This document shows positions 8,301-46,982 of a stretch of 64,000 nt of DNA, piece after piece. Each line of letters opens with the position of its first letter. The stretch's first letter is position 1. Source of the stretch: Pegea sp. RAD2-039 (taxonomy: Eukaryota > Chordata > Thaliacea > Salpida > Salpidae). A model generated the notes under the pieces. It worked only from the letters and a program-made list of their open reading frames with translations. It ran no database searches and was not told where the DNA came from. A program made the translations under genes and the position numbers. Where the stretch lies: positions 992,001-1,056,000 of the forward strand of contig JAQGEQ010000175.1 of assembly GCA_034620365.1 (NCBI GenBank). The letters are read 5' to 3'.

Positions 8301-9346
8301 GAAGTAGTGACGAAGTACGTAGAGACTGCGTTCCATGATGACATCATCTTAAGGAGAAAAGCTAGAAGTGTTAAATTTGTCAGCAGCTAAATATAAAAAG
8401 TAAAAATGTTAAAAAAAAAACAGAGAAATTGTTTCCTCAGCTGTTATTCGATAAATTGGTTGGTCTAAAGAAAAAAATGAAAGCAAAAACTTGCCGTTGC
8501 AGAATGATATGTTTGCTACTTTTCATTTTTTGAATTCTGATATCTTAAAGAACAGGTGCTCCTAGTTATAACACCTGCCTCTCATTTCAAAACGAACTGC
8601 CTCATAGTGTTCATATCCGAGTTTCTGTAAAGTTCTGATCGTTTTAAAATCTTGAAATAAACATTTTTACGTAAATTTTTATCACTGTATATGAAGTTTC
8701 ATTTTAATGAAAGTTAGAGCGTTTTTAATCAGCCAACTCTATTCAATATAATGTCTATGAACCATAAACTATTTTGATGTCTACTAAATGTGAAGTTCTT
8801 CCTTCACGTTCCAGTTTCCATTTTCATGATTTCGCAATTAAACAGACTGAATTTTTTATTGTTAAAATTTGATCTTTAAAAACTTTTGAAGCATAAACTT
8901 AGAAGAGTTTACAGCTGTTTGAACGTGCTTTTTTAACTAAATTCAATTAATCGAAAATCAAACCGGTAAACACTTCCTTGGAATTTTGAAAAATACTCCT
9001 TTAAAAATACTTGTTTTTACAGTCAAAACAACCTCTGTATTTTTCTTAAAGAGTTAACAATTGTTTCAAACTATATGAAAGTATACTAAATAAGTATATC
9101 CAGTTTAAAAGAAATACTATTTTTCCATGTTTAAATTGGTTTTAGAAAAAAGAGTTTGCCTAATCAACTATATAGTTGTAGCTGAAATACTAAAACAAAC
9201 AGAGCAGAAAATGGAATTCTTGTTAACATTCAAATAAAATATGTTGTTGGTAGAATAGGTTACACGTGTAAGTTATCTGACTTTTTTCCTTAAAAACTTT
9301 TTTCATCTCGTTTGGTAGCAACGTAGGCGACGTTAGAATGTTTCTA

Positions 9347-9374
9347 CAGGTGGGCGATGGTGCCAGGCAGACTG
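9347..9374 (+). promoter_or_regulatory. Degenerate CAGGTG/BMP-element module
   Basis: CAGGTG (9347-9352) is followed after 6 bp by GGTGCC (9359-9364). Three bases later comes CAGAC (9368-9372), the reverse complement of the SMAD-binding GTCTG. It resembles the exact modules at 10.7, 11.1, 18.5, 19.3 and 21.3 kb but has one change in the GC half and an inverted SMAD4 half. A GGCGAC sits just upstream at 9326. It is called on similarity to the other modules. Confidence 0.3.
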
Positions 9375-10720
9375 CTTCTTTCTTCTGATCTTCTTCAACT
9401 ATTCAACAAAAAATCAACTCAGCCATTAAGAGGAACTGAAGTTTTTTTCTAATTTAGTAATTCTCTACAATTGGTTGTAATTCTACTTAATTCAGTAAAT
9501 TTTTACTTAAAATCTTTTGGAATATTTTCTTTGACTGTCATCCAAAAATTTCACAGATTAAATAAGTTCATATTAAAGATTCTGATCAGTCTCAAAAACT
9601 ACTAAATAATCAGTGATTACACAAACAGGTGTTTTAAATACCACAAAGATAAATTTTATGAATAGTGGTCAGTAATCGAAAACAAGATTGTGTTTAAAAT
9701 TGAGAAATAAATTTTTATCTAGGCTGAAACGCAGCTGTGTGGTTTATTTTACTTTTTTTTTATAAGAATAACGTTTTGAGAAAAACTTTAAAACTAAACC
9801 TTTGATATAAAATATGGTTTAAATTTGTTTACCTTTAAAATCAATGTTGAAATATCCATTTCGTTAAATTGAAAGATAAGTTTTTGTATCTAAAACTAAA
9901 TAAAATTTCCAAATATCAAAAACGTTATCATCTTGAACACATTACAATTTTGAATACTTTAAAAAATTGTCAGTGAATAAATGTAATGAAATTACAAAAC
10001 AAGTTTAACGAAATGTAAAATTACTAAACAAGAAGCTTGCTCGTTACAAAACTGTTAATTGTTATTTGTTAAGCGTAATTAAGTAATTAAAAGCAAATTA
10101 AATTTAAGTTTAAACAAGTTTAATGCTGTATAGCAGAAATAAAGTAACTTAACTAAGTGACTGGTGTTTAGCATAATATATAAATACAGTTACTTATTAT
10201 TTTAAGTATTTTGTCATGGTTGCATTTCGAAAATGTTGTTTAAAGCATTTAAACCACTCAAAAAATAACTTGCTAAATAATTTTTTTAATATTCAGTGAT
10301 TATTTGCTTAAAGCCATAATTGTCTTAAAACTCCATTCAATATTTATAAATATAAGTTCACAATGAGTTTTGTCATTATTTGTATCCACAAAATCAATCA
10401 TAACATACCAAGGTACACAAAAAATTGATATAAAAAAGATAAAAAAAGTTTTGTTTACCACCACACATAAACGAACAGCAATTGCAAAGAACAAATGCAA
10501 ACATGAGTTTCCTTGTCAAATATTATCTGAAACTTAGTATAAAAGTACAACGGCAAGTTATTATTTATCAAAAATCAAATCTCATTGTTCAGTAACGAAG
10601 AAAAAAGCTGAAATCAGTTTGAATAGTTAGGTGTAACATTGAAGATTTTACTTGCTGTGGTAATTTATCTACAAATGTCGTCATCACCTCGCACAATATC
10701 GCTACGTAGTGATAACGATC

Positions 10721-10746
10721 CAGGTGTTCAGGCGCCGCGTAGTCTG
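10721..10746 (+). promoter_or_regulatory. E-box plus BMP response element, distal module
   Basis: The module reads CAGGTG (10721-10726), 4 bp, GGCGCC (10731-10736), 5 bp, GTCTG (10742-10746). GGCGCC-N5-GTCT is the known composite site for two SMAD1/5 (Mad) and one SMAD4 (Medea) MH1 domains. It fits the Drosophila silencer consensus GRCGNC-N5-GTCTG and the vertebrate Id-type BMP element. CAGGTG can bind bHLH dimers or ZEB/Snail zinc fingers. It lies 8.9 kb upstream of the Id ATG, within a GC-richer patch (about 10680-10760) that also has GATA-type sites flanking TACGTA. Confidence 0.65.
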
Positions 10747-11110
10747 GGCGGCTTCTTGTATGAAATAGAGGGTTAAGAAGTGATGTTTGAGAAGTTTGTG
10801 AATCGGCACCAATTGCTCAAAACTTCTTTTGCAGCACAAAAGATGAGAAAGGAATTGCTTACTCAATTGCTTCATATAAATTGTTAAGTTTGTCCCATAG
10901 AAAAAAAAACAAGAACTGCTTATTATAATTATATTTACGCTACAAAGTTAATCAAATATGCGAAAGAGATAAATTTGAAAAGTTGTGGTTTTTTAGTTAC
11001 ATTTAAGTGGTTTATTTTGAACACTTTTCTCCACCAACAAAATCGCTTAAATATAAAAATAATTTCTTGCTGAAGTGAGTGAGTTAGTTCATGTAATTGT
11101 AGCAAGCCTA

Positions 11111-11142
11111 CAGACAGGTGTGCGCTGGCGTCTGTACGTCTG
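11111..11142 (+). promoter_or_regulatory. E-box plus BMP response element, distal module
   Basis: CAGAC (11111-11115) overlaps CAGGTG (11115-11120). After 6 bp comes GGCGTC (11127-11132), then 5 bp, then GTCTG (11138-11142). GGCGTC satisfies the GRCGNC half of the Mad/Medea consensus, and the 5-bp spacer to GTCTG is exact. The module lies 0.39 kb from the one at 10721 in the same orientation, so the two probably form one enhancer about 8.5-9 kb upstream of the Id gene. Confidence 0.6.
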
Positions 11143-14100
11143 CGGTAATTTACTTTTTCGCTTGTTTACTTGCTTTGTGAGCAAGTTTGAAATTAGACGT
11201 GATTCCTACTCTGTACTTCTCTTTAACAATTTTACTGAAGGTATATAACTATGGCTGCTACTATATTCACTTTGACCGTCTAACTTTTGTCTTGTAATTG
11301 CAGCTTCTCACATTAATGTATACCTTAATTAGCAAAAAAGTTTACTTAAAACTCTGTTTGCTCTGTACACGTTACTTCACAACAGATTTGTATCCTAATC
11401 TGTTCATACAAAAATATCTTTAAAAACTGTTATAGAGATTGTATATCAGCAAAAATTTCGTATAAATCATTAATGTTTTTTTAATCAAAATATAACAAAT
11501 TGTTCAGACAAAAATTATAACTCAAGTTGAAAAAAAATTGTTTATAAAAAACAAGTTTTATTAACTAAATATTTTTCAGAGAGTTAACAATCATACGTTA
11601 CTTGTGACTGGAAGGAAAACTGATCATCAATCAAAAGAAGATCAATTTTCTGCAGATGTTTTCTAGATCTTTAAATGATAAGTTGATTGAGAAAAAAATA
11701 GATTTTGATTGACAAGAAATCATATTTGTGATAAACAAGACGTTGATAAGAAAACCTTTGTATTTTATCAATATATCTTTGTTCAGAAAACTTAATAAAA
11801 AAGGCATTTAGGTATTGTAAATTTTATAAAGAAAAGTTTTGTAAAATTGGTTCTGCATTACTTCATAAAGAAGTATTTATTATATCCTGATTTTTAGACT
11901 ATTCCAGTTTTAAATAGTTTATTTTTCTATATTGTAAATATTTTAAGTTAACAATTCCACAATTAATCAAATTTTACTAAAACGATCATTTCATAGAAAG
12001 TAATGGAAATATCTAATTGATACTTCCTTATCTTTAATATGAGATTAAGTAGCAACATCTGCAAGTCACTGATTATTCAATGTGAAAAATAACAATAAAA
12101 GAACTTGACATATGTAAGCCAACTACAATTAAAAATTACATGAAAAAGCGAATGTCTAATAAAAGACAATGTTAACAGAATTCCCTTTATTTTCTTTAAA
12201 CTTAATATTTTTGTTTTTAAACTTTTATTTACTTGATAAGCATCACCACAGTTAATATCATTGTGAAATTGTTGTATAAATAAATAGAGAGATCAGATTT
12301 TTAAACAATGTACTACCTCTTCAAAAAAAAAACTCTTGTTTAAAAGGAAATACATGAAGTGATTTTTAGATAAGCCCATAAATTATCCGCGTAATAACCA
12401 TGAAAATGGTTTTCTTGTAGTTTTTTCATGTAACTGAGCTATAAAAGAGAGGCAAGTTAAAGTACAGTCATAAAATTGTGATCAAAACTCGCTTTTTAGA
12501 AGCCGACCAATTAAATAAAATCTTTGAATCAAATCATTCATTCAGATTCAATTTATGCAAACATTGTAAACATTTAAAAACTGATATGTTCAGCAGAGTT
12601 CTGTTTAAGAATGAAGAAACAGTTAGATTTAGAATAAAATCAGTAAAATATTTACTAAAATGAATAAAATTATTTTGTTTATCTAAAGAATTTTTTCAAT
12701 TTTTTTATTTAGAAATCATCAAAAAAATTTACTAAATTTTTAGTGTTGTACTTCCACCTAAACATTAATACAAATGCAAACTCATATTTTGGTCGTTTGA
12801 ATTGCAATTATTTATATTCAATAAACAAATTTCTATTCATGAAGAGTATTTTCATCACAAAATATTAACTATAAACAGTACTATAAGAAGAAGCTAATAG
12901 TAATTATTAAAACAAACTTAATTGCCAAATTTAATTTAGTTTTATTAATTACTCTCAAAATGTAGTTAAGTAAATTCATTAGTAACGATTAAACAATTAT
13001 TATTCAAGTAAGATAAATTAGTTGATAAAGACCAATTAAGATTTTAATTAACTATTAATTACACAAATTCAACTACAAGAAGATTATCAACACTTTTACC
13101 TACAAACAAAACTGATTAAAATAGGAAAAGTACAAAGATAAACTTTAGCTTAAAGGAAAATAAATATTTGGCACAAATTATATAAAATTACTTTAATTGA
13201 TTTCATATCGAGATATTTTGATTATTTTTCATAAATATAATATTTATAATATAATTTTATAAATATGATAATTATTTTCTTGAATGATTTTTTATTAATA
13301 TTTGATGATTATCTGTCATTTTAGTCATTCCGTCTTTTTAAAAAAACTGTGACCTTTTCAATGATTAATGTAACAACATCAGTTTTTGCTCAAAATTAAA
13401 GCAACTTTTTTTATTTAGCAGTTTTGAAAGTTATTAAATTTAAAATAGTAAGTTCATTATACACCTTAAAATACTTTAGGTAATTAAAAAACTTTAGCAA
13501 AAAAGAAATTATTGCTTAAAAAATAGCTTATAAAATATATGAAATATTGTGGAATATTTGGGCTTTTACAAAAAATCTTTAAATCTATTTTTCCGACTTT
13601 GAATAAAATTTTTATATGAAAAATATAAACTTTAATTAATAATTGGTTTGTTTTTCAAATTGGTTTCAGTTTTTCCTGGAGAACATTTAATCAGTTTAAT
13701 TTGTGAATTTCATATTAAGATAATTTTTTCAAGTTCTTAATCATCTACAAAGTTTGGAAAATATCTTCTATAATTACAGAACATTCTGTTTTAAGATGTT
13801 TGGTAATAATAATGGCTTTCTGCGTCATTTCAGGGTTGGTATCCCCTCAAAGACTGATTAAATTGGGCAATAAAAGTGTTTATAAATAATTGGAAGATAT
13901 AGAAAAATCTTATATGATGAGAAACTAACTTGAAACTGTCTATTAAGTAGACCTATACTTTATTTCTATAAAATATTCTTTCAAAATAAATTGACACTTA
14001 AATATATCTCACTAGGTTTTTTGTTAAATTTTAAGTTGTGCTTTAATTTCAGTTTCAAAATAATGTTAATTCAATCTACAAAAGCATATTGCCATTATTT

Positions 14101-15675
14101 TGTTTGATTTTTCTATACATTTTATTTTAGAAACTAAAACAAATTTATTTTCAAAAGAATTTTTTCCAATTAAATAGTGATAGATACTGTTATTTTAAGA
14201 ATAGTTTAAAAGTTAATATTTTACATATTTGTACATATTTGTTTCATATATTATAATAGTAATAAAATATAATTTAGCTTATAAAAGCGTATTTGATTAA
14301 ATGATTTATGGAGTAGTAATTAAAAACTTGAGAAGGTTTATAGAATGATCATGCAGTAAATAAAGCAAAACTTGAAAATGAAAAATACCAATTTCATTGA
14401 CAAACTTCAAAAAAGTTTGAACAATAAATTAACTGATAGTTTAATTGTTGTGAGCTGTAAGGACAACTAATCAAATTGTTAATTAACTTCTATTAACTTA
14501 TTTGTTTTCAAAACACGTTACTTAAATGACTAAACAAATATTGCATTAAAACATATGAAAAAATGTTATCGCACCAGTAAAAATAAAACACAAACCAAGT
14601 AAAATATAATTTTATATATGAAAAGCTATTGCTCTAAATATAACTTATAATGTTACAGTGAATTCTATAAATAAAATTCTTTAAATAGAATAGGATATTA
14701 TCTATCTTTCTAGAAAGTTTATTTTATAAGTTATGGCAAATGAATATCGTTTATAAAAATATATTCTTTGTAATCTAATTGTAAAAGATGTATACGTCTA
14801 ATGGTAAATTATATGGTCAAAAAACATATTAGAAGCAGATGACAGTCGTGTAGTAGAAAATTCCAGAAAAATGTTTGATGGTATTTATAACATAATTATA
14901 TTAATATTTGATCTCATCTTAGCTCACTCTTTAGCTGGTTTTAAAACATGTTTTAAAACTACGAAAAACGTTTTGTTATTGTTCTACATTTTCAAATGTA
15001 AGTCATAAAAAAACTACCAAAAAATACTTTTGGAAATAATGTCACAACCTTTTTATGGTGTGTTTTAAGAGTCATTCTATATACTTGAAAGTTCTTTTTA
15101 AATTTCCATCCAAATTGGTGACCTAAATATCTTCAAACTTTTTTCAAATTGTTCCCAATGAATCGTCCCAAACTTAAGAATAATCTTACGGTGGCATATG
15201 GCTTTATTTTTTTGAACGACAAAGTATCATTGATAGGAGTTTCCCAACTAATGGGTCATATCTATTGTAGCAACTTTATTCACATCTGGAAAAAAATATT
15301 AAAAAACAATTTCTTTGTTTGGCTAAATATTTTTTCTAGTCCAAATACTCTTGAAGATGAGTAAAAAGGTTAATCAAAGTCAACTTAATCATTTGAAGAT
15401 GAAAAATTGTAAAATTTTTAGAAGTGGTTACAGAGCAAATTTTCCACTTTTATCTACCGACACAAAAAAGCAAAATTATTTTATTGACTGCAGATGAAAA
15501 TATCTGACAACAAAATTTGATTAAAACAAAAGAAATTCCACTAGTAAGTATTCTTTTTTTAAGGAACTTAAATCTGATATAAAATGTAGTTTGATATGAC
15601 ATGTAAAATATCAAATTTATCAAAAACCCTCCTTTCAAAAAGACCACTATAAAAATAAGAATTTTCTGGCTTAAA

Positions 15676-15722
15676 TTCCCACTCGTATACCAGCTGCTCA
15701 ACAAATATCACCTATTCCCACG
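15676..15722 (-). promoter_or_regulatory. Su(H)/CSL and proneural E-box cluster
   Basis: Read on the minus strand, the order is CGTGGGAA (15722-15715), GCAGCTGG (15697-15690) and AGTGGGAA (15683-15676). CGTGGGAA is a textbook high-affinity Su(H)/CSL site, and AGTGGGAA contains the GTGGGAA core. GCAGCTGG fits the proneural A-box GCAGSTGK. Two CSL sites flanking one A-box within 47 bp is the Su(H)-plus-A code of Notch/proneural target enhancers. The target is inferred to be the Id gene 4 kb downstream. Confidence 0.5.
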
Positions 15723-16444
15723 CTTTTAGCATCAATAGAATGCAAAGACTGGAAGATGAAGCAGATGTTGAAGTGATAATCATTTGTTTGTATCACTGGA
15801 AAGACTTTTAAAAACTTTTTGTTTATTTTTTGTTAATAAAAGTTTATTACTAATAAACAATTACTACAAAATAAAAAGAGAAATTACAAAACTTTGAATT
15901 ATTTAGTAAATTATCATTCCAACTTTCGATTAAAACTGTTGAAGTATCTTTGAATTATTTGAGAGCTTTCAGCATCAAATAAAAACAAATTAATCAATCT
16001 AAAACATGATGATAAATACTGAAAAGTATTGTTCGTAGTTTGATACATTCCAATCTTTTCCCATTTTCTATAAAAATTCTTCAAATTTTTTGCTTTAGAC
16101 AACATAAATGAGAAAATCAAACTGGACAGAGAAGAAGAACAAAAATAAAAGATTATAGAAACTAAGAACAACATAATCCAAAAGAACTAATGAAAAAAAT
16201 AGAACAAGATTGATACCACCAATCGATAATCAGATATTATCCACTTTCTACATATTGCCTATAAATTCTACCTTTCCGTCTGAAAAATTAAACTTGAGAA
16301 ACTTTCTCTAATCTCCTTTATTAATTTAATTATAAATAAAAATTCCCTATTTATGTCGTTTGATACTTTTAAATGTATATACTAGATATTTATCAGCTAC
16401 TTCAAAGAATCTCATATAAAACATACAATTGAATAAGTCTGCTG

Positions 16445-16486
16445 CAGCTGGTTAGAACACGTGCAGATGATGATGCATTGCAGCTG
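16445..16486. promoter_or_regulatory. Dense E-box cluster
   Basis: Within 42 bp there are two CAGCTG boxes (16445-16450 and 16481-16486), with CACGTG and CAGATG between them. CACGTG is the preferred site of Hairy/E(spl) and Myc-type bHLH proteins, and CAGATG is a common proneural or Twist site. This is the tightest group of bHLH sites in the window, about 3.2 kb upstream of the Id start. A regulatory role is inferred. Confidence 0.4.
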
Positions 16487-17816
16487 CCAACACAAGTTAC
16501 AATCAGATTTGTTATAAACATCCGATTCTTTTGATTCAGTTAAATGCAATTTAAGTATGAAGAGGATCAATTTTTCTTGAGAACCATAAGTATTTCTGCT
16601 AAGTTAGGTGCTACGCCTGCATTAAAGAAGCGAGTCTTTAGTAAGATCAAGAACAAAAGTCATTAACAAAATAAGTTTGAACTGATGTTGTAAAAGAAAA
16701 TGTTTTTATGAAACTAATCACTCTAATTAACTGAGTTTTATTTATTTTAAGAATCTGTATCTAATTATTTTTAAATTAATTTTTTTATTACTATGTTGTG
16801 ATCTGTTTGAGTCAGCGTCACCGGTTTACTTATCACTTTTATCACACTTTAAAACAAGCAGACGGTTAGGGAGGCAACAAAAATGGCTTTTACTCATTTA
16901 CAAAAAGCTTTTGACTTAGTGTCCCCTTTTCTAATGAAGAGCTTGACCGTTGCCATGAATCACAGCTGGAATCAAGATTAAATTATTGAAGTTTTATGGC
17001 TACAGGTGGCTGAATTTGTTGTTTATTTGATTTAATTTAAGTGAAAAAACCAAACTAAATCTTAATAAGCAGTAAATGAAATTACACTTACGTGTTTGCA
17101 GCTAATAAAAACTAATAATCAGATGTTAATAGAAAGCTTCCTTGCATTTTTTTAAAGTACAATTTCAATCTGGTTAGTTTAAAATCAGGAATAAATTAAT
17201 AAAGCAATTGTTAAAAATAAACCAAACCATAAGACACATTATATAATTTGATAATTGTTTTTATAACAGCTAGTGTTAAAAATCATTCACAATTGACACT
17301 TGATAATTTGCATAAACCAGAAATTTTGCAAATATTACACTGATCATTTTTAATTAAAAAGTATTTATAACGATCATCAAATTTTTGGGATTGTAATTTG
17401 CACAAATTTTTTAGAATAAATATTGTTTTTTATGTAAAATTGTTCGAGTGTTGTTTCGTTCACATTTAAATTAGAGGAAAAAAAACTGAATAAGTTATCC
17501 AGATTTTAAACTGATCTAGCTAATATAAATATCAAGGATCTAATTTTTTTTTCCAGCTGCAAAAGCTTTAATCATAGAAGCGAAGACCTCATCATCTTTT
17601 TGAAGTCTCTACGATCGGAAACACCGACAAAAAAGAAAGAAAAAGAATTTTGTCAAAAACAAAAACCAAAAAACAGCTGTATTCTCGTTGTGGTTTTTCG
17701 CTTTTAAAAGAGGAAAAGGTATGAAAGCCTTTGATAATTTAATCGTATTTATTCAATTCTATAAGAAATTGATAAATATGTTATTATAAATCAAATTAAA
17801 AAATGGTATAAGTAGA

Positions 17817-17838
17817 ATAAATAAATAAATAAATAAAC
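17817..17838. repeat. ATAA microsatellite
   Basis: A run of about five perfect ATAA units sits in AT-rich DNA. It is an ordinary simple repeat with no evident function. Confidence 0.75.
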
Positions 17839-17919
17839 AATTTTTTCTTTTTGCTTATTATATCAGTAAATTTTATCTTAGAGTTGTACTAAAACCATCA
17901 AATTTTATATGAAACTAAC

Positions 17920-17937
17920 CAGGTGTGGTGCCAAGAC
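17920..17937 (+). promoter_or_regulatory. Degenerate CAGGTG/GGTGCC module
   Basis: CAGGTG (17920-17925) is followed after 1 bp by GGTGCC (17927-17932) and then AGAC (17934-17937), the reverse of GTCT. The order of half-sites matches the good modules, but the spacing and the GC half do not. It may be a decayed or low-affinity version, or chance. Confidence 0.2.
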
Positions 17938-18461
17938 CAGTCCATATTCAAAGATTCCTCTGTTGGTAAAAAATAGCACTAGACCCTTTAATACAATAAC
18001 TCAAGTAAGATGCTATCGAATCTATAAATACTTTTATTATTTTACAATAATAAGAATTCGTTTCATAAATTTATACTGAATATTTTTGTTTGGAGTTACT
18101 TTCATTATTTTATCTTTAAAGATAGAAAAACAAGAAGTATTTTCAGGAAAAATTTTCTCCATATTTAGTTATTAAAACAAATAAAGATTTTGCTACGTAT
18201 AGCTAGTAAAAGATTCTAATAGAAATAATATAAGATAATTTCAAAAACTTCTTTAAATACTTATTGAAATCTTCAAAAGCTTTTTTTTGCAATCAAATTG
18301 TAAAGAGGAAAAATGATGGTTGATTACTTTCATAAAGAATATCTGAGTTGTGAGAAACTTATTTTATTGCTATATTCGTGCTAGAAAAAGTAAATAATAG
18401 AGAAACACAATTATGTCAGAGTAATGAAAATGTTGAAAAAAAAACTTTGAATATTTACTCG

Positions 18462-18489
18462 CAGGTGAATCAAGGGCGCCACAAAGTCT
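18462..18489 (+). promoter_or_regulatory. E-box plus BMP response element, 1.2 kb upstream
   Basis: The site reads CAGGTG (18462-18467), 7 bp, GGCGCC (18475-18480), 5 bp, GTCT (18486-18489). The run GGCGCCA-N4-GTCT agrees with both the vertebrate Id BMP element and the Drosophila Mad/Medea element. It lies 1.18 kb upstream of the Id ATG and about 0.8 kb from the promoter-proximal pair. A TGTGAGAA CSL-type site lies 106 bp upstream of it. Confidence 0.6.
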
Positions 18490-19243
18490 AGCAGTTTGTT
18501 GTAAAACTCTTTTTTTTCTATGAATTTTAACTTGGGAGTGTTACTACAAAAAAGTTCAGCAAAAAAGAGATTACAATTGAGTGACTTGAATGCAAAATTC
18601 ATTCTATCAAAAACGTCTCCCATAAATACTTGACATTTAAGATTACTATGCTACTTTCTTTCTGCTTGCATCACATAATAAATGCTGTGTTGTATGATAT
18701 GAATGCCAGAAGAAAGATGGAACCAGATGTTTTTTCAGCTTTGAATTTCATTTTATCTTTAGCAACTCCTACCACTTAAGATTTAAATACAAAGACTCTT
18801 TCTGTCGTTTAAATTTCAGTTTTGGTTAACTGTTTTTTGTTAGGGTTTAAAAACATAAAAATTAGATTGTGCAAAACATATAAAGGTATAAAAACAACTC
18901 AAATATTGTACACAGCTGCAAAAGTTTTATATTAGCGTTTGGTGGAACCATTATAAGCAAATAGATTAATCACACACTATAAAAACTGTTCGTGTTTTAT
19001 TTCACTGCAAAGACAAACTTTACAATTATCATCAATTCAACTGTCAGCATATTTTGATAATTTTTAGCAACTTTAATAAAACCGATAATGATTATAAGAC
19101 TCAGAACCCCAATCATGAGTTTATTTCCCAAAGTAATTCTTCGATTGAGATAATAACAGAAGAAGGATTACTCAATTCAAGCAGCTCAAACTTTTAAACC
19201 AATCATAGAACGCTGATAAAAGTGAAAAGGCGATAAATGTTGG

Positions 19244-19460
19244 AGGTGGCGTCTGGTCTCCAAACCCCGGACAGTTCTCACAGTACACTGTGGTTCTTCC
19301 AGGTGTACTGGCGCCAGCAAGTCTGCTGTTATAGTTGTGTGCGAATAGCGCGCGCTGATGAACAACCACTTCTCTGTTCTGTTCACTATTGGCACATCCA
19401 GGTGCGTTGGCGACTAGAAGTCGCGCATTCAGCCTTCTGTAGAGAATTTCGTTTGCACGT
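19244..19460 (+). promoter_or_regulatory. Id promoter-proximal BMP-response cluster
   Basis: This GC-rich island contains two aligned modules 99 bp apart. The first is CAGGTG (19300-19305), 4 bp, GGCGCC (19310-19315), 5 bp, GTCTG (19321-19325). The second is CAGGTG (19399-19404), 4 bp, GGCGAC (19409-19414), 5 bp, GTCG (19420-19423). A third, looser copy at 19244-19259 reads AGGTG, GGCGTC, 2 bp, GTCT. A TTCTCACA CSL-type site lies at 19275-19282 and a GCACGTGC E-box at 19454-19461. The block ends about 90 bp before the TATA-like element. It fits a direct BMP-SMAD promoter module of an Id gene, as in vertebrate Id1-Id3. Confidence 0.7.
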
Positions 19461-19550
19461 GCAGAAAATAAAATAAAAACAAAAGAAAGACCGCTAAAAG
19501 GAGAGAGCTGAAAAGAAAAAAAGTTTGATGAAAAAAAGATAAAAAATTGC

Positions 19551-19560
19551 TATTTAAAGG
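19551..19560 (+). promoter_or_regulatory. TATA-like element of the Id gene
   Basis: TATTTAAAGG lies 118 bp before the Id ATG, immediately downstream of the BMP-site island. It predicts a transcription start near 19575-19585 and a 5' UTR of roughly 90 bases. It is a good but not perfect TATA match; no transcript data were available. Confidence 0.45.
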
Positions 19561-19668
19561 AAAGCTTTTTCAGACCGGCTTATTGCTAAGTTTATACTTG
19601 CTTACTGTTTTTTTGTTTTTTGTATTTTTTCTTGCTTTTATTTAGTACATTTCTGATTTTCAATCAAC

Positions 19669-19962
19669 ATGGTGAAAAACGTTAAATCAATTGAAGTCTC
19701 TTCTGATGCTAGATGTTCCTTACTGGAAAATCAAAATGAGCAAGAAGATATAAATTTACAAAAATGTTTAGAAACATTACGTCAAATGCTTCCTTATAAC
19801 CATGAACAAGATGGAAAAGACAATTTAGAAACATTGGAAGTGATGCAAGAAACAATCGATTACATCAAGCATTTAATTGATATTCTTAAAAATGATGAAG
19901 AAAGCTTTGATCTTAGTCAACTGCTAAAATCACCTCATATATCAAGCCTAGTTTCAGCATAA
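19669..19962 (+). CDS. Id-type helix-loop-helix protein (inhibitor of DNA binding)
   Basis: This gene encodes a 97-residue protein with a helix-loop-helix at about residues 26-74: helix 1 around CLETLRQMLPY, helix 2 around VMQETIDYIKHL, which holds the DYI..L signature of Id/Emc proteins. The residues before helix 1 (ENQNEQED) are acidic rather than basic, so it should dimerise with E-protein-type bHLH factors in the nucleus and block their DNA binding. The family is known for this dominant-negative role and for being switched on directly by BMP signalling. The ATG is the first after a TATA-like element and gives the whole HLH. The coding part has no intron. Sites for SMAD and CSL lie just upstream. 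It is shorter and more divergent than vertebrate Ids, so orthology to one Id paralogue is not claimed. Confidence 0.85.
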   Translation: MVKNVKSIEVSSDARCSLLENQNEQEDINLQKCLETLRQMLPYNHEQDGKDNLETLEVMQETIDYIKHLIDILKNDEESFDLSQLLKSPHISSLVSA

Positions 19963-19979
19963 GAGCTTATTTTGAGCTG

Positions 19980-20089
19980 GTAAGTTGATTTGTGTTTAGT
20001 ACTTTCTCATCACTGGTTGTTTAAAAAGTATTAAATCAATAACTAGCCAAGTTTCTAGTTTTCATTTGTCTTTTTGTTTGATTTATAGA
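19980..20089 (+). other. Probable 3' UTR intron of the Id gene
   Basis: A good donor (GG|gtaagttg, 18 bases after the stop) and an acceptor (ttgatttatag) bound about 110 bases in the 3' UTR. Vertebrate Id genes also carry introns just after the HLH, near the C-terminus or 3' UTR, so the position is in keeping with the family. Splicing is inferred from signals alone. Confidence 0.5.
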
Positions 20090-20388
20090 CTTACAACAGT
20101 TAATTGATCTACCACCTGGGTTTCGAAGATGAAATCAAATGATACACCAGATTCAGTTGCTCTTCAAGAGAAGGCTTTAAATTATGGGAAGAAATGCTGA
20201 TTGACAACACATTGCATAATCTGTTTAAATACTTTTGAAATTATGCTTTTGTATAAGCGTTTTTTATTCGTTTTATATATACAAATATATATATAGAATA
20301 TTATAAATACTGTATATACATATATATGTGTATAAGCAATATCTTTCCATTTTATTGATTTTATCGCATGAAGATAACTTACAGCTTT

Positions 20389-20394
20389 AATAAA
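20389..20394 (+). terminator. Poly(A) signal of the Id gene
   Basis: An AATAAA lies about 430 bases after the Id stop codon, past a TATA/ATAT-rich part of the 3' UTR (20273-20335). It is the first canonical hexamer after the inferred 3' UTR exon. Confidence 0.5.
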
Positions 20395-21280
20395 ACATCT
20401 TAACTGTTCAAACTTAATGTAGATTATTATGTTTTTTGAAGAAAACAGATTGATTTAAATAAAGTATTTTGAGTTCATTAAATGTTTACAAAATCGGTTA
20501 ATGACAACCAATTGAGCAGCTGTGATAACAACAACCTCAATTAGTGACTAACAAAACATTCACAAATATTTTTTGAGTATTTAGTCATGAAAATTTAACA
20601 GCAAACTTTAATAAGTACTGGATCATGGAAAAGGCTTAGGAGTAAATTTGTTTAAGTTTTATTACTTTTAGATTAAATGGATATTTTTCAATTTTATTTC
20701 CTACTATTATCTTTTTTTATTAAATTAAATTATTCCATAACAATTCATATTTTCTATATGATGAGAAAAATGAAATAATATTGAAAATAAATAATACAGA
20801 AAACCATAAATTTTTACAATAAATTTATCAAAAATTGCTTTTAAAAATTATTAACTGAGATATTTTAAATAATAATAAAGTATAATTCATGATAGCCCAT
20901 TTAAAAGCCAAGAGTATTTTAGTTTCTATCGGAAATTTTGCATTTATTATCAAATTTGCAGCTCAGAAAAGTTTTTACATAAGACATAGTACAAGGATAT
21001 GTTGTTTAATGGAAAAATTCCTTCAAATCTCTTCTTCTATCAAATAAAAAAGTTTCCAAAACTGTAATTTGATTGAAGTTTTCCGATAGTTTCAAGTTTA
21101 TGCTTAAAAGTGTTAAAATAGAAAGACAAATTGATAAAAATAAATGAAAAGAAATCCTTGTTAGACAGTTACATTGTGATAAACTTTCTTTTATTTGGAC
21201 ATTTGTAGATAAACTAAAAAAGATACTATACTCATTAACCAAATCGAAATGAAGTTTTCTTTGCGGCACCAAAGCGTTGT

Positions 21281-21307
21281 AGACATCTAGGCGCCTACGC
21301 ACACCTG
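21281..21307 (-). promoter_or_regulatory. E-box plus BMP response element, downstream, inverted
   Basis: On the minus strand this reads CAGGTG (21307-21302), 6 bp, GGCGCC (21295-21290), 5 bp, GTCT (21284-21281). It has the same order and spacing rule as the upstream modules but points the other way, 1.3 kb past the Id stop codon. A CAGCTG lies 0.1 kb further on. A downstream BMP enhancer of the Id gene is inferred. Confidence 0.6.
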
Positions 21308-31400: not shown

Positions 31401-32362
31401 GCCAGCTTGATGTGGTTGGTATGGTGTTTAATTAAATAGCGGTAGGTGGCATTACCAATAGTTTCTCATGACAGCTTGTGAAAAAGCCAAATTATCTTCC
31501 TTGTTTTTATGTTTATTGAAAGGTTTAACTTTGAAGTTTAGATCTTATGTTGTTTTTATGAACCTTTCCACGATTGAAGTTATTAAAGAGCGATTTTAAA
31601 GCAAATCTTAAATAGTTTTTTTAATTCTTCTTCTTTTCAATTCATAATATTTTTCATAAAAGTCCTGAAAAAGTTGTTGTAATTTTATCAAGTTTTTTAA
31701 TACATCTTATTATAATTGTAAATGAACTTGTTTGATTGCGCGACAGATTTTTTTAGATATAATTTATATTTAAAAACATAAATCTTATAAAGTTATTTTT
31801 CAAAACTTTTCTATTAAATTTCTTTAAGATTTTGAATTTAAAAGATCAAAGTTTATAATTTAGCTTGTTAAATATTGATAAGATTTTTGTGACATTAATT
31901 TATTTTACATCTTGAAATACATAACCTACAATAATGCTTAATTAGAAAATACTTTTTTTTAATAATATTATAAGAATATTAGCAAATAATTTTGTTTGTT
32001 GATAAAAACAAGGTTGTCCACGTGGTTTAAATTATTAAACAGTTGTAAGATATAAAAGATTAATGTAGAATATAAATTATTAAAATTTACTTGTAGGTTA
32101 AACCAGCAGAATAAATTATTAATATGACAGATTTAATCATTCTTAAATCAATAAAAGTTATATTATTAATCATCTAAAAAACGTAGTAAGTATTATAGGA
32201 AATTTTCACTACTTTCATAAACCACAATTTGTTGACAAAAAAAAAAGAAAAAAGTTTGTCTTCTTCTCTCGTTTAACTGTAAGGTTTTATTAACTTCTTG
32301 CTACTTTTCAAAGCCTTATAACTCTACTTTGACTCGTAACAATCACATCAACAGCAGCAAGA

Positions 32363-32895
32363 ATGGTTCAGAATACTTGTCTCGAAGAATTAAAGCCGCT
32401 TAAAAATTCGAGATGCTTTTTATCTCAACCTTCAAGGAGACGAAGAAATCGTATACAGCAAAGACGTAGGCTACAGTATAAAGCTACAAAAGAAACAGAA
32501 AAAAAGGAAGAAATGAGGTATTAGACATTTTTTAATTATTTATTTCCTATTTAAACCGAAATCTATAAAGAAATTTATAAGCAATTACAGTTAATTGACT
32601 TTTTTAAATATTTATTTAACGCTTGCAGCTGTATAGTTGACTTTTTCGTTTGTACAGGTGCTTATACTCTGAGCTTGGAGCAGTTATACCTTCATGTAAA
32701 AATCAACCAACCACATCAGGCATCGATGTAGTTTTAAAAGCTGTCGATTATATCAATCAACTTCATCAACGAGTTGCAGCAGAACATGGAGTGATTGCTC
32801 TACAAGAAATTCAACAAAACGCCAGAAAGGTTGTGTTGCAACAGCTGAAAAAGATGAGTGGAGACACAAAACAGGTGAATACAAGTGTTAGATAA
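32363..32895 (+). CDS. Second Id-like helix-loop-helix protein, two coding exons
   Basis: Exons 32363-32517 and 32658-32895 join in phase 2 (donor AG|gtatta, acceptor tgtacag) to give 130 residues. The HLH runs from about residue 50 to 92: helix 1 around CLYSELGAVIP, loop SCKNQPTTS, helix 2 around VLKAVDYINQLHQRV, with the DYI..L signature shared with the gene at 19.7 kb. The run directly before helix 1 (TKETEKKEEM) is not a canonical DNA-binding basic region. An Arg-rich patch (RRRRNRIQQRRR, residues 25-36) lies further upstream and could be a nuclear signal. It is therefore most likely a second Id-type dominant-negative HLH protein, but a divergent bHLH factor is possible. The intron inside helix 1 differs from the intronless-CDS neighbour. 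Poly(A) signal at 32976-32981. Confidence 0.75.
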
Positions 32896-36100: not shown

Positions 36101-39060
36101 ATTGATCCATAAAATCTCCTCATCATTTTCTAATACTATTTTAAGTAAGTCATTTTTAAGTTAAAAAACAAATATTTACAAAACGTGACAGATTAATAAA
36201 TCACACAATTTAATCCTGGAAACTAAATTCACCGGATAAGTCGATATATATGATTTTGGTTATCACATCATTCACTCAAAAACTGTTCAAAAAAACAATT
36301 TTTTTTATAAACTTATGCATTTTTTCTATTCCTTATTAAAACATTATCAATTATGACAACCTTTTTTGTAAATACATATCAAAATATTTTCATTTTTATC
36401 AAATAATTTATCGATTGCAAGCTACAATCCTTTGGACGTCTTCCAGAAACCAAAATTTGTCAATATAAATCTTCTATGACTTTTATCTATTTAATTATTC
36501 CAATAAGCAAGAAGGAGTGTAAAAAGAGGAATTTTAACCAACACACATTCTCATTATACCTATCATATATAAATAGGATACAAATATAGAAATTTTAAGA
36601 AGTAAGTATGTCATCTTAATTGATATAACTTGAAAAAAGGATAATGGAGAAGAAAGTATCGACTTGAAAGTCAAACAATTTATGAAGGATTTAAAAATAA
36701 GAGTTAAGTTGCTTTTAATCAATCGAATTTCTAAAATATCTAAATTTTAGGAGCTATGACGTTAGTCATAACTATCGTTTTATACTAAGTTTCTTGCATA
36801 TCGCTCTTGTAAATGTTGCTTGATGCTGTTGACCAGCTTTTAGCCAGTACGTTGCGATAAATTGACACAACTAGCTTTTATCTTAATTTTTGTCCTTATT
36901 TATAGTTTAAACCGAAGTCATTGGTCTAATGATAATAGGCTTTCATTTCACTTGTTGACAAAAGAAAAACAAATCATAAAAATCTATGAATATAAATAAA
37001 TTAACCTTTTTAAGCATCACAATAATATTTAAAAGTTTTGTCAAATGTAGGAAATGTGATTTATTCAAAATATCTAAATTTTAATGCTACAAAGTTTTTT
37101 AACTCTAGTAATACTTATTTTAGATCTTTATTTACCAATCTACTAAATGAATTTCTCGTAATCAAAAATATCATGTACTAGAACTATTAGAAAACAAAAT
37201 TAAAGGTTTAATCAAAAGCTAGAAAGATAATCATGTTTTGTTTTTTAATTTAGGCATAATAAACGATTTAAAAAGCTAGTAATTTTTATAATATTTAAAA
37301 ACTTTGTATTTTTGAATAATTATGATGACGTGGGCATATTGGTGGTTACCCAAACTAAAGAAAGTTTGTCAAAATTTAAAGTGTTCATGTTGAATCTTTA
37401 TTTTCAAATCATTATTAATTCAAATGAATAATAAAATTTTTTATTTTATTCAAACTATCAAGTAAAGTCTAAACAAATTACTTTTTAAGATATTTTATTT
37501 CTGTTTTAGATATTATATTTTATTTCTTGATGACAACAACAAACTTGTTGTGATTGAATATATAATTGACCTACATCAGGTTGTTTGCAAACATTTTTTC
37601 ATTTGGTTTTAATTTAAAAAAAGTTGGTATCTGTCAAATTGTTTGTTTGTCTTTAATGTGAAGTTTATAAAATAAAATAATTTTCGTTAAAAATATTTAA
37701 TAATTTATATAATAGCTAATTTTAAAAATATATAAGAGTATGCAATCTAATTAACATTTTAAACAAAATAAATAGTTTCAACATTTTTGTGAATAATTAT
37801 TATACTTGAAAAAATAATGTAGTTTTGATTTTTTATTTTGTTACACAATTTTTTGTGATTTTAAGATTGTTATTGATAACTCTTCTTATAAAATACAAAT
37901 GTATTTAGTTTTATAAATCTTTTAGTAAAAGGTTTTTAATGTAGTTTAGCACTTTTATTATTTGGTTTTTTAAAATTGTTTTACTTTTATATAACCTTGT
38001 TTATGAATAATATCGCTATAACTAAAAAAGTATAAAGTTTATAGCTAAACTTATAATTAAACTTTGTTTATACTTCACATTTATTTTTGCAAGATTATAA
38101 AAAGCAATTTATCAAAATTAATCTGTGGTATTTATGTAATAAAACTTTATAAAAATGTTTAACAAATTTTAAATTAAACCTTATTATGCTGGATACTGGT
38201 AACTTCAATAACTTTTGTGCAGAAATCAATTTTCTTTATCATAATCATTACTTACTTTTTTTGTAAATTTTGTATTTATAATAATTGTGACTTTAATCTT
38301 TAAAAAATGAATCAATTTACATCTTGAATTTGCCCTAATCTTTATTTAATTGTTTTATTTTTACATTTATATTTATGGATTATAATCTTGTTTAAAAACT
38401 TATATGTTGTCAAGTATTTAGATACATACTTAAAACTATTCCTATTTTTAGTTTAGTTAAATCACGGTTTAAATAATAATATAACAAGTATAATAACATA
38501 TCTTATGTTAACTAACTATATGATTTGACTCATTATGTATATTAAGGTTATCATTTTTATTTTGACATTTTTTACTTATTCTTAACATCATTTTAATAAC
38601 TCTTATTTGATAAGTATTATATGATTAATGATAATATATAGCAAGATTATAGTTTAGTTTCTGAGACACAAATAAATCAACTATCAATTATAGCAACATT
38701 ATTATAAAGTAAATGAGAAGTTTTAAAACTAGAGTTCTTGAGAAGTTACTTTATTTAAGTAAAAGTCAAAAAAGGAAATAGATTAAAGAGATAACTTATA
38801 CTAATTATAAATAAAATGTCCTTGTATACCTAAGATCTTTTTTGCATGAGCTTTTTACATTTAAGGGAGACAGAGCTCTTGCTCCAGATTAGACTCTAAC
38901 AGTTTGAGAATTACTGCTGTAGATCAAATATAAATCTGATTATAATTGTTAAAATCTACATTTTTACTAATGTAACTAGTAAATTTGCCTAATTTAAGTA
39001 ATTCTAGTTTTATGATTTTGAGTTTATCTATTCAGACTAATTTATACAAGTTTCAACAGG
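33120..39060. other. Gene-free stretch between second HLH gene and IER3IP1
   Basis: Nearly 6 kb, very AT-rich, with no supported gene. The last CAGCTG E-boxes of the left domain lie at 34109 and 34177. From there to IER3IP1 only a hAT-like terminal relic near 38.9 kb stands out. The short frames at 33.4-33.7 kb and 36.5 kb have the Phe/Ile/Lys-rich composition of translated AT-rich DNA. Confidence 0.55.
38896..38923 (-). mobile_element. hAT-like terminal inverted repeat relic
   Basis: The sequence around AGTTTGAGAATTACTGCTG, read on the minus strand, begins CAGCAGTAATTCTCAAAC. This resembles the CAGTGGTTCTCAAAC terminus of hAT (Charlie-type) DNA transposons and their MITEs. I could not find the partner terminus or an 8-bp target duplication, so this is at most one worn end of a short non-autonomous element. 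A slightly GC-richer neighbour (38860-38895) may be part of it. Confidence 0.35.
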
Positions 39061-39065
39061 TTAAA

Positions 39066-39308
39066 ATGGGTTTTGGACTTTATGCTTTGATAGAAGCAGC
39101 TTTATTGATTGTAAATGCGGCTGCAGTGTTACATGAAGAACGATTTCTGTCAAAGATTGGATGGAGCAGTGCAGGAACAGGATTTGGTGATACCCCTGGA
39201 GTCAAAACTCAGCTGATAACTTTTGTTCGCTCAGTTAGAACAGTTATGAGGGTTCCATTGATATTTATGAATTTTGCTACTATATTGTGCTTGATGTTAT
39301 TCGGATAA
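39066..39308 (+). CDS. IER3IP1: Immediate early response 3-interacting protein 1 (Yos1 family)
   Basis: This is an 80-residue protein (human 82) that matches IER3IP1/Yos1 along its length. It has a hydrophobic N-terminal segment (about 4-20), the family block VLHEERFLSKIGW, a short Gly-rich loop with FGDTPGVKTQL, then RSVRTVMRVPL and a C-terminal membrane segment ending LMLFG. The family acts in ER and early secretory membranes, supporting ER-to-Golgi transport and secretory cell survival. The coding region has no intron. The chosen ATG is the family start; an AG acceptor-like site (39058-39059) six bases before it suggests a 5' UTR intron. A poly(A) signal AATAAA lies at 39396-39401. The next gene, PPTC7, converges on it with only 435 bp between stop codons. 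Confidence 0.95.
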   Translation: MGFGLYALIEAALLIVNAAAVLHEERFLSKIGWSSAGTGFGDTPGVKTQLITFVRSVRTVMRVPLIFMNFATILCLMLFG

Positions 39309-39743: not shown

Positions 39744-42187
39744 TCAACCATCTCCGCTTACTATTGCTAAAACAATTGTGATATCGTCTGGTTTGCCACC
39801 TATAAAAATATTGAACATTTGCAATTATTGATAATCGTGAAATAAGATAGTATATCTGATATTCAAATTATTCTTATTTGTGATTAAATATATAGCAAAT
39901 AATATCAAAAGTATTTAGTCAACTGTGTGGTGGTAGAACGTCAGCTATTCACAAATGAAAGTTGGCACAGCAACTTGCCAAATGGTTGCGCAATTCCGAA
40001 AAGTAATAAGAAACTTATTCAAATGAAACAAATCTGAATTTTTATTCTAATCATTCAAGCATTTTTCTAGAAGTTTACTCACCACGAACATAATAACCAC
40101 TTTTCCTAGCTTCTTTAGCAAATGGTGAGATGTAGTCAGGATCATTAGAGAGTTCCCTTGCTATCTCAGCAAGATTTTTTGCAATTTCTTTGATACTTTC
40201 ATAATTGTCATCCTATTAAACGAAAAATATTAGTTTTCTAATTGATCGATAAAGTATTTAATGATAAATCAATTAGTAGATAATTGTATTGAAGTAAGGA
40301 AATGGAAGTGAACAGATGAGATAAACAACTTTTTACTAGCCTACAGCTACAGATAAAAAAACAATTTTTGAAAGTCATATGAATTGTTGTGGCTCATACA
40401 TATAATAGTAGTTTCTCTAAACCTTGTTATACACAAGTTTCCTTTATAATAAAACAATAAAATTCATTCAAAATATATAACCTTCAGTTTTGACAATTCT
40501 TTAACAATGGACTGATCAGACATATTATCAAATAATCCATCAGTAGCAGTTAAAACAATATCTCCAATTTCTAAATTAAATGTTTCTGTATCAGCATCCT
40601 CTGCACTAGAAACAAAACGTCACAAAATGATTTGATCTTTCAATTAACAATTTCAACCAATGAGCAATTAGTTAGTTTAATTAGGTCATCGTTTTTTTGA
40701 AGATCTTACTGAGAAAGTTGAAAATGAAAACCAAATAAAAGCAAGTTTTTAAAATTTTGTTGACATACGTATCATGAAGTGCATCATGTCTATAGTCTTC
40801 AGGAGGCATTGATAATTGAAAAGGTGTATTAAAGAAATGTTGTTGATCTATTGACCGGTGAACCACCTTGCCCTTTCGAACTATCATAAATCCTGAATCG
40901 CCTAAATTAGCTGTATGAAGTGTTTGTCGATAACGATCCAGCATCATTATGCAAGCAGTACTGCTACCTGTTAATAAAAGTTTATGAAAAGATTAAGACA
41001 GTTCGAGTTTTATAATTTAGTTTATAAATCGAAATAATAGTCAGGTATCTATTAATTTGATGAATCATTGTCGCTAACAAAAAACTTGACTAATTTTTGA
41101 TGATACGTTTTTTGCATATTCATAATTTTATTGAGTAAATTAAGTAGTCAGTTGTTGTCAGATTACGTCATATTATACTACGTGAATATTTTGTAACAGT
41201 TTTTTTAGCAAACAACTTAAATAGTATAGTAAATAACAATTTAATTAGTAAATTGTTTAAAATTTATCTAAAAGTACAAAAAAATGTTAATACTTAAATT
41301 TGATATAATCTACAACTTTTTTTTAAATGAAAGATTTACAAATCAAAATATTTTTTATGACATAAAAAACAAACAAAAAGTATTAAAACTATTTGAAACA
41401 TGTTTTAAAGCATTTTAAGAAGTCGTAAAGAAACTTTATATGATAGCACCAAATCAAATATCAAAAACTAACCAACTAAAGGTGATTTATCTTCTATTAA
41501 TTCTTGATAACCAGATGCAAGTAATTCTCCAGGCTTACTAGCAATAAATCGACCACTTTTTACAAGTGTCTTACAAGCTTCCATCAATTTTTTAGAAAAT
41601 TGTGATGGATCAACACCATAAGCTCTCCAGCCACCTACACCATCTGCAACACCTAAAAAAATATCAAGAAAATTACATTATGTTCGTAAACTTATTTGAT
41701 CATTGAAATAAGAAATCAAATTACCAACAACATCAGTGGCTTTATTAAAAGCTATGAAGCAAGCATCATCTCCATAGAGTCCCTTTTCAAAGATGGAAAC
41801 AGGTGGTACTCGTTGCCTTCGGTTTCGAGGTGAATCAAACTTTGAAAAGCCCCACATAGCTGACACTAGCTTACAAGGGTACGAAGGTTTGTCTGTAAAT
41901 TCAGTAGGACATTTAAACTTTTCCATCACTTATACAACTTTAAATATTACTTAGATTCTTTAGAAATCAACAATATATTAACCTGATATTGGTGTACATG
42001 AATGTGAAATGGTATGTAATATTCTTCTGGTTAATGGTGATGTTACAGAAGGAAGAGCAATGAAATCTTGCTGAACAACAGTATTAGCAAAAGCTCTAGC
42101 AACAAGCCTTCCATAAGCAACCACTGAAAGCATTCTCCCCAATATTTGAGGAGGATGTAAAGATGAAAAAATCTTACTGAGTTGCAT
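39744..42187 (-). CDS. PPTC7: PP2C-type mitochondrial protein phosphatase PPTC7
   Basis: Seven minus-strand coding exons join in frame: 42187-41983, 41892-41725, 41652-41473, 40967-40769, 40605-40482, 40212-40083 and 39799-39744, giving 353 residues (human 304). PPM signatures appear in order: YGDDACF (108-114), ADGVGGW (127-133), GSSTAC (185-190), NLGDSGF (205-211), TATDGLFDN (270-278) and KPDDIT (338-343). These include the metal-binding aspartates. The Pro/Arg/Ser-rich N-terminus of about 70 residues, with few acidic residues, fits a mitochondrial targeting region and accounts for the extra length. The family removes phosphate from matrix proteins, including coenzyme Q enzymes such as COQ7, and restrains BNIP3/NIX mitophagy. 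Two donors (gttaat, gttata) are off-consensus, but the phases agree. A 5' acceptor just before the ATG is possible. Confidence 0.93.
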
Positions 42188-45638: not shown

Positions 45639-46982
45639 TTAGGTTGACACTCCATATTTAGATTTGATATTATTAATCTGTTCTTGTTTTTTACCAGCAT
45701 CTTTCTTCTTGAATTGCTACACACAAAAGAAAATTAGTTTCAGAAAAATTGTTGATTACTAAAAAGTAATAAACAAGTTCTTACTCTGTTTGGATTGTAG
45801 TATAAAACAACTAAATATCGATTACAGACATTAAATCCAGATAAATGATCACAAGCATTTTTAGCATCAAATATATCCTCATATACTACATAAGCAGTAC
45901 CTCTAGTATCAGCAGTTGAACCACTGAAATAAAATTTCCAGTTTAAATTTAATCAATTTTAATTAAACAATTTTTAGAAACATAAACATCAAGCTATAAG
46001 CAGAAAGGTCTTAAATGAATTAACTAAAATAATGATGTAATTAATAATCTTATAGTTTTATAAATACATAAACAACAAATATATAAATATAAGACATAAA
46101 ATATTATAATTAAAACTTTTCTAATGTTATTATAAAGAGAAAACTGTGTCTAATAAAAGCCTCCTTTTAAAATTAGTCTCCATTAGACTATATGTAAAAT
46201 CTCTGAATTTTTAATATAAAAAAAGAATATTAAAAACAATAATTAAATGTTAAACTGTCCAAACACTTTTAAACAGACAAAAAAATAAATTGCAAGGAAA
46301 TAAATTGATGGAACGTTTGGGAAAATCAAATTAAAGAAAACTTACACTCGAATTTGTCTGATAGCACCATACTTTCCAAATATATCATACATCTCTTCAG
46401 CTGTTATCTTATAAGGTAAGTTTCTAATGTATAAAATTCTGTTTACTTCAGGAGGAAGTCTAACCTAAAATAAATATAAAAATATATATTTAAACAGAAA
46501 ATTTCTAAAATAACAAGCTGAAACAAATTAGTGATAAATAAAAAAAAATATATATAAATTATACCTATATATTATTAATTAATATTTATTTAAAATTATA
46601 AGAAAATATTAAAAAAATTTACAAAAGTAAAGCAATTTCAAAATAAATTATCTAAATTCTAAAACTTTATAAATTACTAAATGTTAGAAAAGATAGAAAT
46701 TAAAATCAATATTTAAATTAAGTTTCAAAATTATTGAATGGTCAAAATAGATAAAGTTTATAGAAACTTTTATTAATTGATAGCTTGATACATGAATTTA
46801 GTAAAAAGAAATTCAATAAAAAAGTATCTAAGAAAAAAAATTATATAATATACTAATTTCAGTGTTCTAGATTTTTTATAACTACTATTAACATCTAAAT
46901 TAAACTATATATATAAAGAGAAAAACATTTACTAATTTATATTTTTACTTACATTCGCTCGTCTAGCTGCTTGCATAGCCAT
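45639..46982 (-). CDS. SF3B6: Splicing factor 3b subunit 6 (p14, RRM protein)
   Basis: Four exons (46982-46953, 46464-46346, 45923-45785, 45716-45639) join in frame to 121 residues (human 125). It is a single RRM with RNP2 ILYIRNL at 20-26, including Tyr22, the residue known in human p14 to contact the branch-point adenosine. RNP1 RGTAYVVY is at 57-64, followed by [18 protein letters not shown] and a Lys-rich tail ending IKSKYGVST. The protein is part of the SF3b complex of the U2 and U12 snRNPs in the nucleus. The start [10 protein letters not shown] fits the family start. Donors are near-consensus (gtaagt, gtaaga) and phases 0, 2 and 0 agree. It lies head-to-head with the sorting nexin gene, 2.9 kb away. 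Confidence 0.95.

Follow-up and report, generated by a model that had tools for sequence, protein, structure and literature searches.

The stretch analysed here, referred to throughout as the window, comprises 64,000 nucleotides of the salp Pegea sp. RAD2-039 (assembly GCA_034620365.1, contig JAQGEQ010000175.1, positions 992,001 to 1,056,000 of the forward strand). It contains an Id-type gene surrounded by repeated copies of a composite motif, in which the hexamer CAGGTG precedes a SMAD-type element of the form GGCGCC-N5-GTCT. The product of the gene aligns to positions 15-52 of the 53 positions of the helix-loop-helix (HLH) profile PF00010, the basic region being missing, and the shortness of the protein together with an HLH lacking this region led us to assign it to Id over other HLH-only proteins. 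A database search with the protein returned a single match, a 97-residue homologue with 86% identity, and a structure search matched no solved Id structure. Against what we take to be the sequences of the reference proteins, ID2 scored best, narrowly (54 against 46 for NEUROG1). Within the 3' untranslated region, a segment resembling a short intron (GTAAGT...ATAG, window 19980-20088) begins 17 bp past the stop codon.

Six copies of the composite are found around the gene (Table 1). In all six the spacing between GGCGNC and GTCK is exactly 5 bp, and CAGGTG stands 4, 6, 7, 4, 4 and 6 bp upstream of GGCG in the copies named 10721, 11115, 18462, 19300, 19399 and 21307, respectively. Five copies are strict (four with GGCGCC and one with GGCGTC) and correspond to the ID-type definition of GGCGCC-N5-GTCT on one strand; their GTCT is followed by G in three cases and by A in two. 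The preliminary description of this DNA had listed these five and a sixth with GGCGAC and GTCG, and every position, strand, order and spacing that it gave is present in the sequence; its assumed GC content of about 27% compares with a measured value of 25.4%. A position-weight scan of the window, with a reporting floor of 16 bits, ranked the six copies at the top (38.5 bits four times, 32.5 and 29.5), followed by the site at 9347 with 28.0 bits and then by a drop to 20.6 bits at the first non-copy site, and nothing in the reversed window rose above the floor. Of two looser copies also proposed, that at 9347 thus holds as a weak match and that at 17920 lies below the floor. Elsewhere in the window, at 2263-2307, two GGCGCC sites lie 39 bp apart with no CAGGTG, the first being GGCGCC-N5-GTCG followed by TAGAC; they may represent a SMAD site of another gene.

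Table 1. Features of the window and single-element loci elsewhere in the genome (C followed by a number denotes a contig)
Feature	Position	Strand	Description
Composite copy 1	10721..10745	+	CAGGTG-N4-GGCGCC-N5-GTCT, then G
Composite copy 2	11115..11141	+	CAGGTG-N6-GGCGTC-N5-GTCT, then G
Composite copy 3	18462..18489	+	CAGGTG-N7-GGCGCC-N5-GTCT, then A
Composite copy 4	19300..19324	+	CAGGTG-N4-GGCGCC-N5-GTCT, then G; 369 bp 5' of Id start codon
Composite copy 5, degenerate	19399..19423	+	CAGGTG-N4-GGCGAC-N5-GTCG; 270 bp 5' of Id start codon
Composite copy 6	21281..21307	-	CAGGTG-N6-GGCGCC-N5-GTCT, then A; ~1.3 kb 3' of Id stop codon
Weak copy	9347..9373	+	CAGGTG-N6-GGTGCC-N5-GACT
CAGGTG beside GGTGCC	17920..17925	+	No GTCT at N5
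Id-type gene	19669..19962	+	97 residues, HLH without basic region; PF00010 E 2.7e-6
Yos1-like	38979-39305		PF08571
PP2C-like	40684-40992		18.1 bits, below cut-off
RRM exon	45743-45952
Evx-like locus	C4:582100		Single ID-type SMAD element, ~3-4 kb off
Hmx-like locus	C35:653312		Single ID-type SMAD element, ~3-4 kb off
Not/Vax-like locus	C3:1491630		Single ID-type SMAD element, ~3-4 kb off

Such an array could in principle arise by chance, from compositional bias or by the recent local duplication of one element, and the composite was indeed defined only after the sequence had been seen. We scanned the 105.7 Mb of the same assembly, where counts can be lower bounds, and ran the reversed pattern over the same genome as a control. 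A third-order Markov model built on the window predicts 0.0083 occurrences of GGCGYC-N5-GTCT per 64 kb, and five are observed, far beyond chance; only 0.0053 full composites are expected in the entire genome. The pattern CAGGTGN{3,8}GRCGNCN5GTCT, looser in its SMAD half, gave six matches, five at Id and one, a GACGTC variant, on contig C114. The reversed control of this pattern gave two, so the C114 match is at chance level, and both the variant and the control count in favour of an origin by chance. Against it, CAGGTGN{0,30}GGCGNCN5GTCK gave eight matches and its reversed control none, with six of the eight at Id (gaps 4-7) and two elsewhere (gaps 26 and 28), and the scans revealed no other genomic copy with GGCGNC at gaps of 4-7 outside the Id locus. 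CAGGTG on the opposite, downstream side within 30 bp occurs once genome-wide, outside the Id locus, and the flipped E-box, CACCTG upstream of the SMAD half, is absent from the window and from the other loci examined. When the flanks of the copies were compared, only the overlap of neighbouring windows was recovered, the best other match having an E value of 0.002. The linkers and gaps differ and the flanks are unrelated, so the copies are unlikely to be recent duplicates; an origin by duplication or transposition was rejected on the absence of shared flanks and of other genomic GGCGNC copies with gaps of 4-7. The scan counts thus already largely refute chance, bias and duplication, to which we assign a very small residual probability. 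The pairing of CAGGTG with a SMAD half is nearly exclusive to the Id locus.

The SMAD half corresponds to a characterised element. GGCGCC-N5-GTCTG has been reported as the 'ID-type' SMAD composite of ID1/2/3, which conveys a BMP response that is lost on inversion of the SMAD-binding element and raised by two or three copies, the strict 5-bp rule having been demonstrated for GGCGCC-GGCGCC pairs (PMC11907993). Genome-wide there are 25 sites of GGCGCC-N5-GTCT against four for the reversed pattern and 7.6 expected from the Markov model, and 45 sites of GGCGYC-N5-GTCT against 13 and 13.8, respectively; BMP-response elements (BREs) are over-represented in this genome. After merging the 45 sites at 20 kb, 40 loci were obtained and compared with a set of 96 exon matches (71 homeodomain and 25 HLH). 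Such an exon is present within 5 kb at five of the 40 loci, with 0.33 expected (P 2e-5), and at four of 39 when Id is left out (P 3e-4). The five are Id, Atoh8/Net-like, Evx-like, Hmx-like and Not/Vax-like loci, identified by reading and by comparison with yardstick domains. Scored against what we take to be the reference domains, ATOH8 reached 206 and its runner-up 137, EVX1 178 against 104 and HMX3 189 against 117, and for the Not/Vax-like gene NOTO led VAX1 by only 135 to 128. Two of the HLH exons in the genome, at C6:1428675 and C10:377367, have identical scores and translations on separate contigs and probably represent a recent duplicate or an uncollapsed haplotype.

Only two clusters of BREs (at least two sites within 20 kb) exist in the genome, Id with five and the Atoh8-like locus with two. 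The latter, C1:998470-1004451, carries a pair of ID-type SMAD elements separated by 6 kb, one of them with an upstream GAGGTG-N7, and has eight GGCGCC inside 6.6 kb. Atoh8 has been described as a direct Smad target (PMC8773363) and hmx3 as a BMP target in Nematostella (PMC10849676). Genes of the SMAD1/5-, SMAD4-, SMAD2/3- and I-Smad-like classes, as judged by reading, are present in the genome. The Smad genes were themselves considered as BRE-linked targets and rejected, 0 of the 16 MH2 matches listed lying near a listed BRE (the nearest at ~115 kb). The match to the ID-type element, the over-representation, the proximity to homeodomain and HLH genes and the presence of the SMAD genes make the SMAD half very probably a working BMP element, and we consider binding of pSMAD1/5-SMAD4 at these halves a strong inference. 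The preliminary description is upheld in identifying the SMAD half as an established BMP element of the ID type next to a gene of the Id type, and the genome encodes both SMAD1/5-like and SMAD4-like genes.

The distribution of the CAGGTG half is different. It occurs 3-8 bp upstream of all five strict Id BREs and of none of the 40 other GGCGYC-N5-GTCT sites (hypergeometric 8e-7), and the 60-bp flanks on both sides of the 21 other GGCGCC-type sites contain neither CAGGTG nor CACCTG. The proposal of a fixed CAGGTG on the same side of every strict copy is therefore confirmed for the Id locus, to which the pairing is nearly confined; the idea of a general code shared across BMP targets is rejected by the 40 other sites, and of the overall interpretation it is the BMP/SMAD part, at Id, that keeps strong support. 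Between 8.5 and 21.4 kb of the window there are 13 CAGGTG sites, six of them inside composites (1.01/kb), and eight in the rest (0.16/kb), a 6-fold difference that for other E-box types is ~2-fold at most. An inverted CAGGTG pair 19 bp apart lies at window 8553-8577, 11 kb 5' of Id, and is possibly a bipartite ZEB-type site. When the search was relaxed to AGGTG with a gap of 2-10 bp, eight sites were found genome-wide and none with the reversed control: six at Id, one at the Atoh8-like locus (GAGGTG-N7-GGCGCC-N5-GTCT) and one on C142 with a 10-bp gap. Thus seven of the eight sites with this core, CACCT on the other strand, fall in the only two BRE clusters of the genome. A T-box reading of AGGTGT was rejected as less likely, as T follows AGGTG in only four of the six Id copies, C precedes it in all six, and the Atoh8-like site reads AGGTGG.

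Taken together, the grammar of the composites, their near-confinement to the Id locus and the presence of genes resembling the proposed players are observed, and we propose that the six composites would form a multi-module BMP-response array controlling the Id-type gene. A pSMAD1/5-SMAD4 complex would bind each GGCGNC-N5-GTCK half and thereby switch Id in response to BMP, while a Smad-interacting zinc-finger factor of the ZEB/zfh1 type would bind the CAGGTG (CACCTG) half, which, with its side and polarity fixed, would place the bound factor where it can touch the SMAD complex. This factor may damp or veto the BMP response, the sign of its effect being inferred, so that Id expression would be limited to places with active BMP signalling and little of the ZEB-type factor. 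A BMP-response array with a built-in site for a ZEB-type Smad partner is, in our judgement, the best explanation, standing at about an even chance of being right; for the ZEB-type identity of the CAGGTG binder taken separately, the chances fall slightly short of even. ZEB2 and SMAD1/5 act at neighbouring sites of the Id1 promoter and ZEB binds CACCT(G), according to a review (PMC8304685), and a Zeb2 chromatin immunoprecipitation study notes E-boxes near Smad motifs in Zeb2 targets (PMC10048071). At the salp locus a CACCT(G) half-site adjoins a candidate SMAD1/5 site in six copies at 4-7 bp. ZEB-type zinc-finger exons are found at C18:1149564 and C265:478537 among the 150 of 2202 candidates that were scored, and both are closer to what we take to be ZEB fingers than to presumed Snail or KLF sequences. 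What tips the balance to a ZEB-type over a basic helix-loop-helix (bHLH) binder is the Atoh8-like GAGGTG, which holds CACCT and is not an E-box. More tentatively, a 'BMP AND/NOT ZEB' code might be read from these data, in which a polar AGGTG-SMAD composite, present six times at Id and once at Atoh8/Net and hence mainly at genes that govern bHLH activity, would link BMP and a ZEB-type factor to the overall control of bHLH dimers.

Several points weigh against this proposal. The AGGTG argument depends on one Atoh8-like site and is post hoc, the chance for the two BREs of that locus being ~0.008; the first C is kept in all six Id copies, which a pure reader of CACCT does not need. E-protein bHLH dimers and Snail recognise CAGGTG just as well. 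The reversed BRE control contains CCGCGG, which is richer in CpG than GGCGCC, and its count may be biased downwards; for the GGCGCC form the Markov expectation exceeds this control (7.6 against 4). At 10 kb the link between BREs and homeodomain or HLH exons is weaker (P 5e-4, and 4e-3 without Id), and no listed MH2 match adjoins a listed BRE. Counter to a simple repressor, Id2 fell rather than rose on Zeb2 knock-down in one data set from embryonic stem cells (PMC10048071). The SMAD half could itself have either sign, since the strict copies also match a Drosophila silencer formula: of the two published formulae, the silencer element BMP-SE, GRCGNC(N5)GNCT, and the activating element BMP-AE, GGCGCCA(N4)GNCV (PMC7669266), the former fits all five strict copies and the latter none of the six, so the SMAD half could repress on its own. 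On this basis a Schnurri-type silencer might be envisaged, by which BMP would repress Id and CAGGTG would recruit an auxiliary repressor or else an activator that acts by default. We consider it improbable, given that the identical 15-mer activates at vertebrate ID genes (PMC11907993) and that two of the five strict copies end in GTCTA and not in GTCTG.

With regard to the binder of CAGGTG, an E-protein bHLH dimer, for example with an Atoh8/Net-like factor, might occupy the site, so that Id would be driven by SMAD together with bHLH and would then sequester the bHLH proteins. The circuit would start as a feed-forward loop and carry negative feedback, the Atoh8/Net-like factor being itself a probable BMP target. 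The existence of E-protein-like (C23) and Atoh8/Net-like (C1) genes in the genome keeps such a dimer among the candidates, and the retention of the first C of CAGGTG in all six Id copies and the position of the Atoh8-like locus as the sole other BRE cluster also speak for it. Binding to CACCTG or CAGCTG has been attributed to Atoh8 (PMC8773363), and both the E-boxes and a BMP-response element matter for its action on HAMP, but the E-boxes there are CACGTG (PMC4232863). The bHLH feedback nevertheless fits less well because GAGGTG, the sole near-copy found at another locus of BMP type, does not constitute an E-box. Moreover, in the fly Emc is expressed only if Da is present, but a homeostatic feedback of the kind expected was reported as not borne out, control being largely post-translational (PMC5915177). 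We therefore regard this circuit as a rather doubtful alternative, if the most plausible of the rivals. CAGGTG is also bound by Snail-family factors, and if it were a site of the Snail/Scratch type, SMAD would confer activation by BMP and Snail would confer repression. This reading appears unlikely: the Atoh8-like GAGGTG suits the preference of Snail poorly, and one exact codon pattern for a SNAG start had no match in the genome, which is a weak test. Of the partners suggested in the preliminary description, the ZEB or Smad-interacting class is thus the best of three, with the vertebrate parallel at Id1 (PMC8304685), and bHLH feedback, which would be possible, takes a lesser place.

On one side of Id the window contains further coding segments. 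A second HLH-like open reading frame (ORF), at window 32641-32895 and ~13 kb from Id, reaches 20.8 bits against PF00010 (cut-off 20.7) and contains two CAGGTG; the ORF before it, at window 32333-32524, includes a basic stretch. The Yos1-like, PP2C-like and RRM segments of Table 1 lie on the same side.

BMP targets are rarely predicted from SMAD motifs alone, and the grammar of partner sites is therefore an open question. Here a single gene, in a genome that is small and rich in AT, presents a SMAD site with a fixed-side partner in six natural replicates and against a near-zero background, which makes the identity, spacing and polarity of the partner directly testable. What is new is a repeated, polar and nearly locus-exclusive pairing in a non-model invertebrate, and it raises the question whether ZEB-SMAD control of Id genes is older than the vertebrates. 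If the proposal is true and the pairing is kept by related species, the ZEB2-SMAD1/5 veto known from Id1 would represent a module of great age within the Bilateria, encoded as a single DNA word.

The Id locus resembles the vertebrate ID-type SMAD composite in its half-sites, 5-bp spacing, orientation and Id-gene setting (PMC11907993), and differs from it in that its five to six copies are dispersed, two of them end in GTCTA and CAGGTG stands on one side; in the main text of that paper the terms 'E-box' and 'ZEB' occur 0 times. The Drosophila BMP-SE and BMP-AE are likewise bipartite 15-bp sites, for pMad/Medea, of which the strict copies match the SE formula, and the main text of the corresponding paper contains 'CAGGTG' and 'E-box' 0 times (PMC7669266). 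At the HAMP promoter, mutation of the E-boxes or of the BMP-response element each cuts ATOH8-driven activity by about half, but these E-boxes are CACGTG and the available text of that source describes no repeated fixed composite (PMC4232863). A direct parallel to what we propose is ZEB2-SMAD1/5 at Id1, where a CACCT(G)-type factor sits beside SMAD1/5 at an Id gene (PMC8304685). In the salp the candidate pairing recurs six times, on one side, in one polarity and at 4-7 bp.

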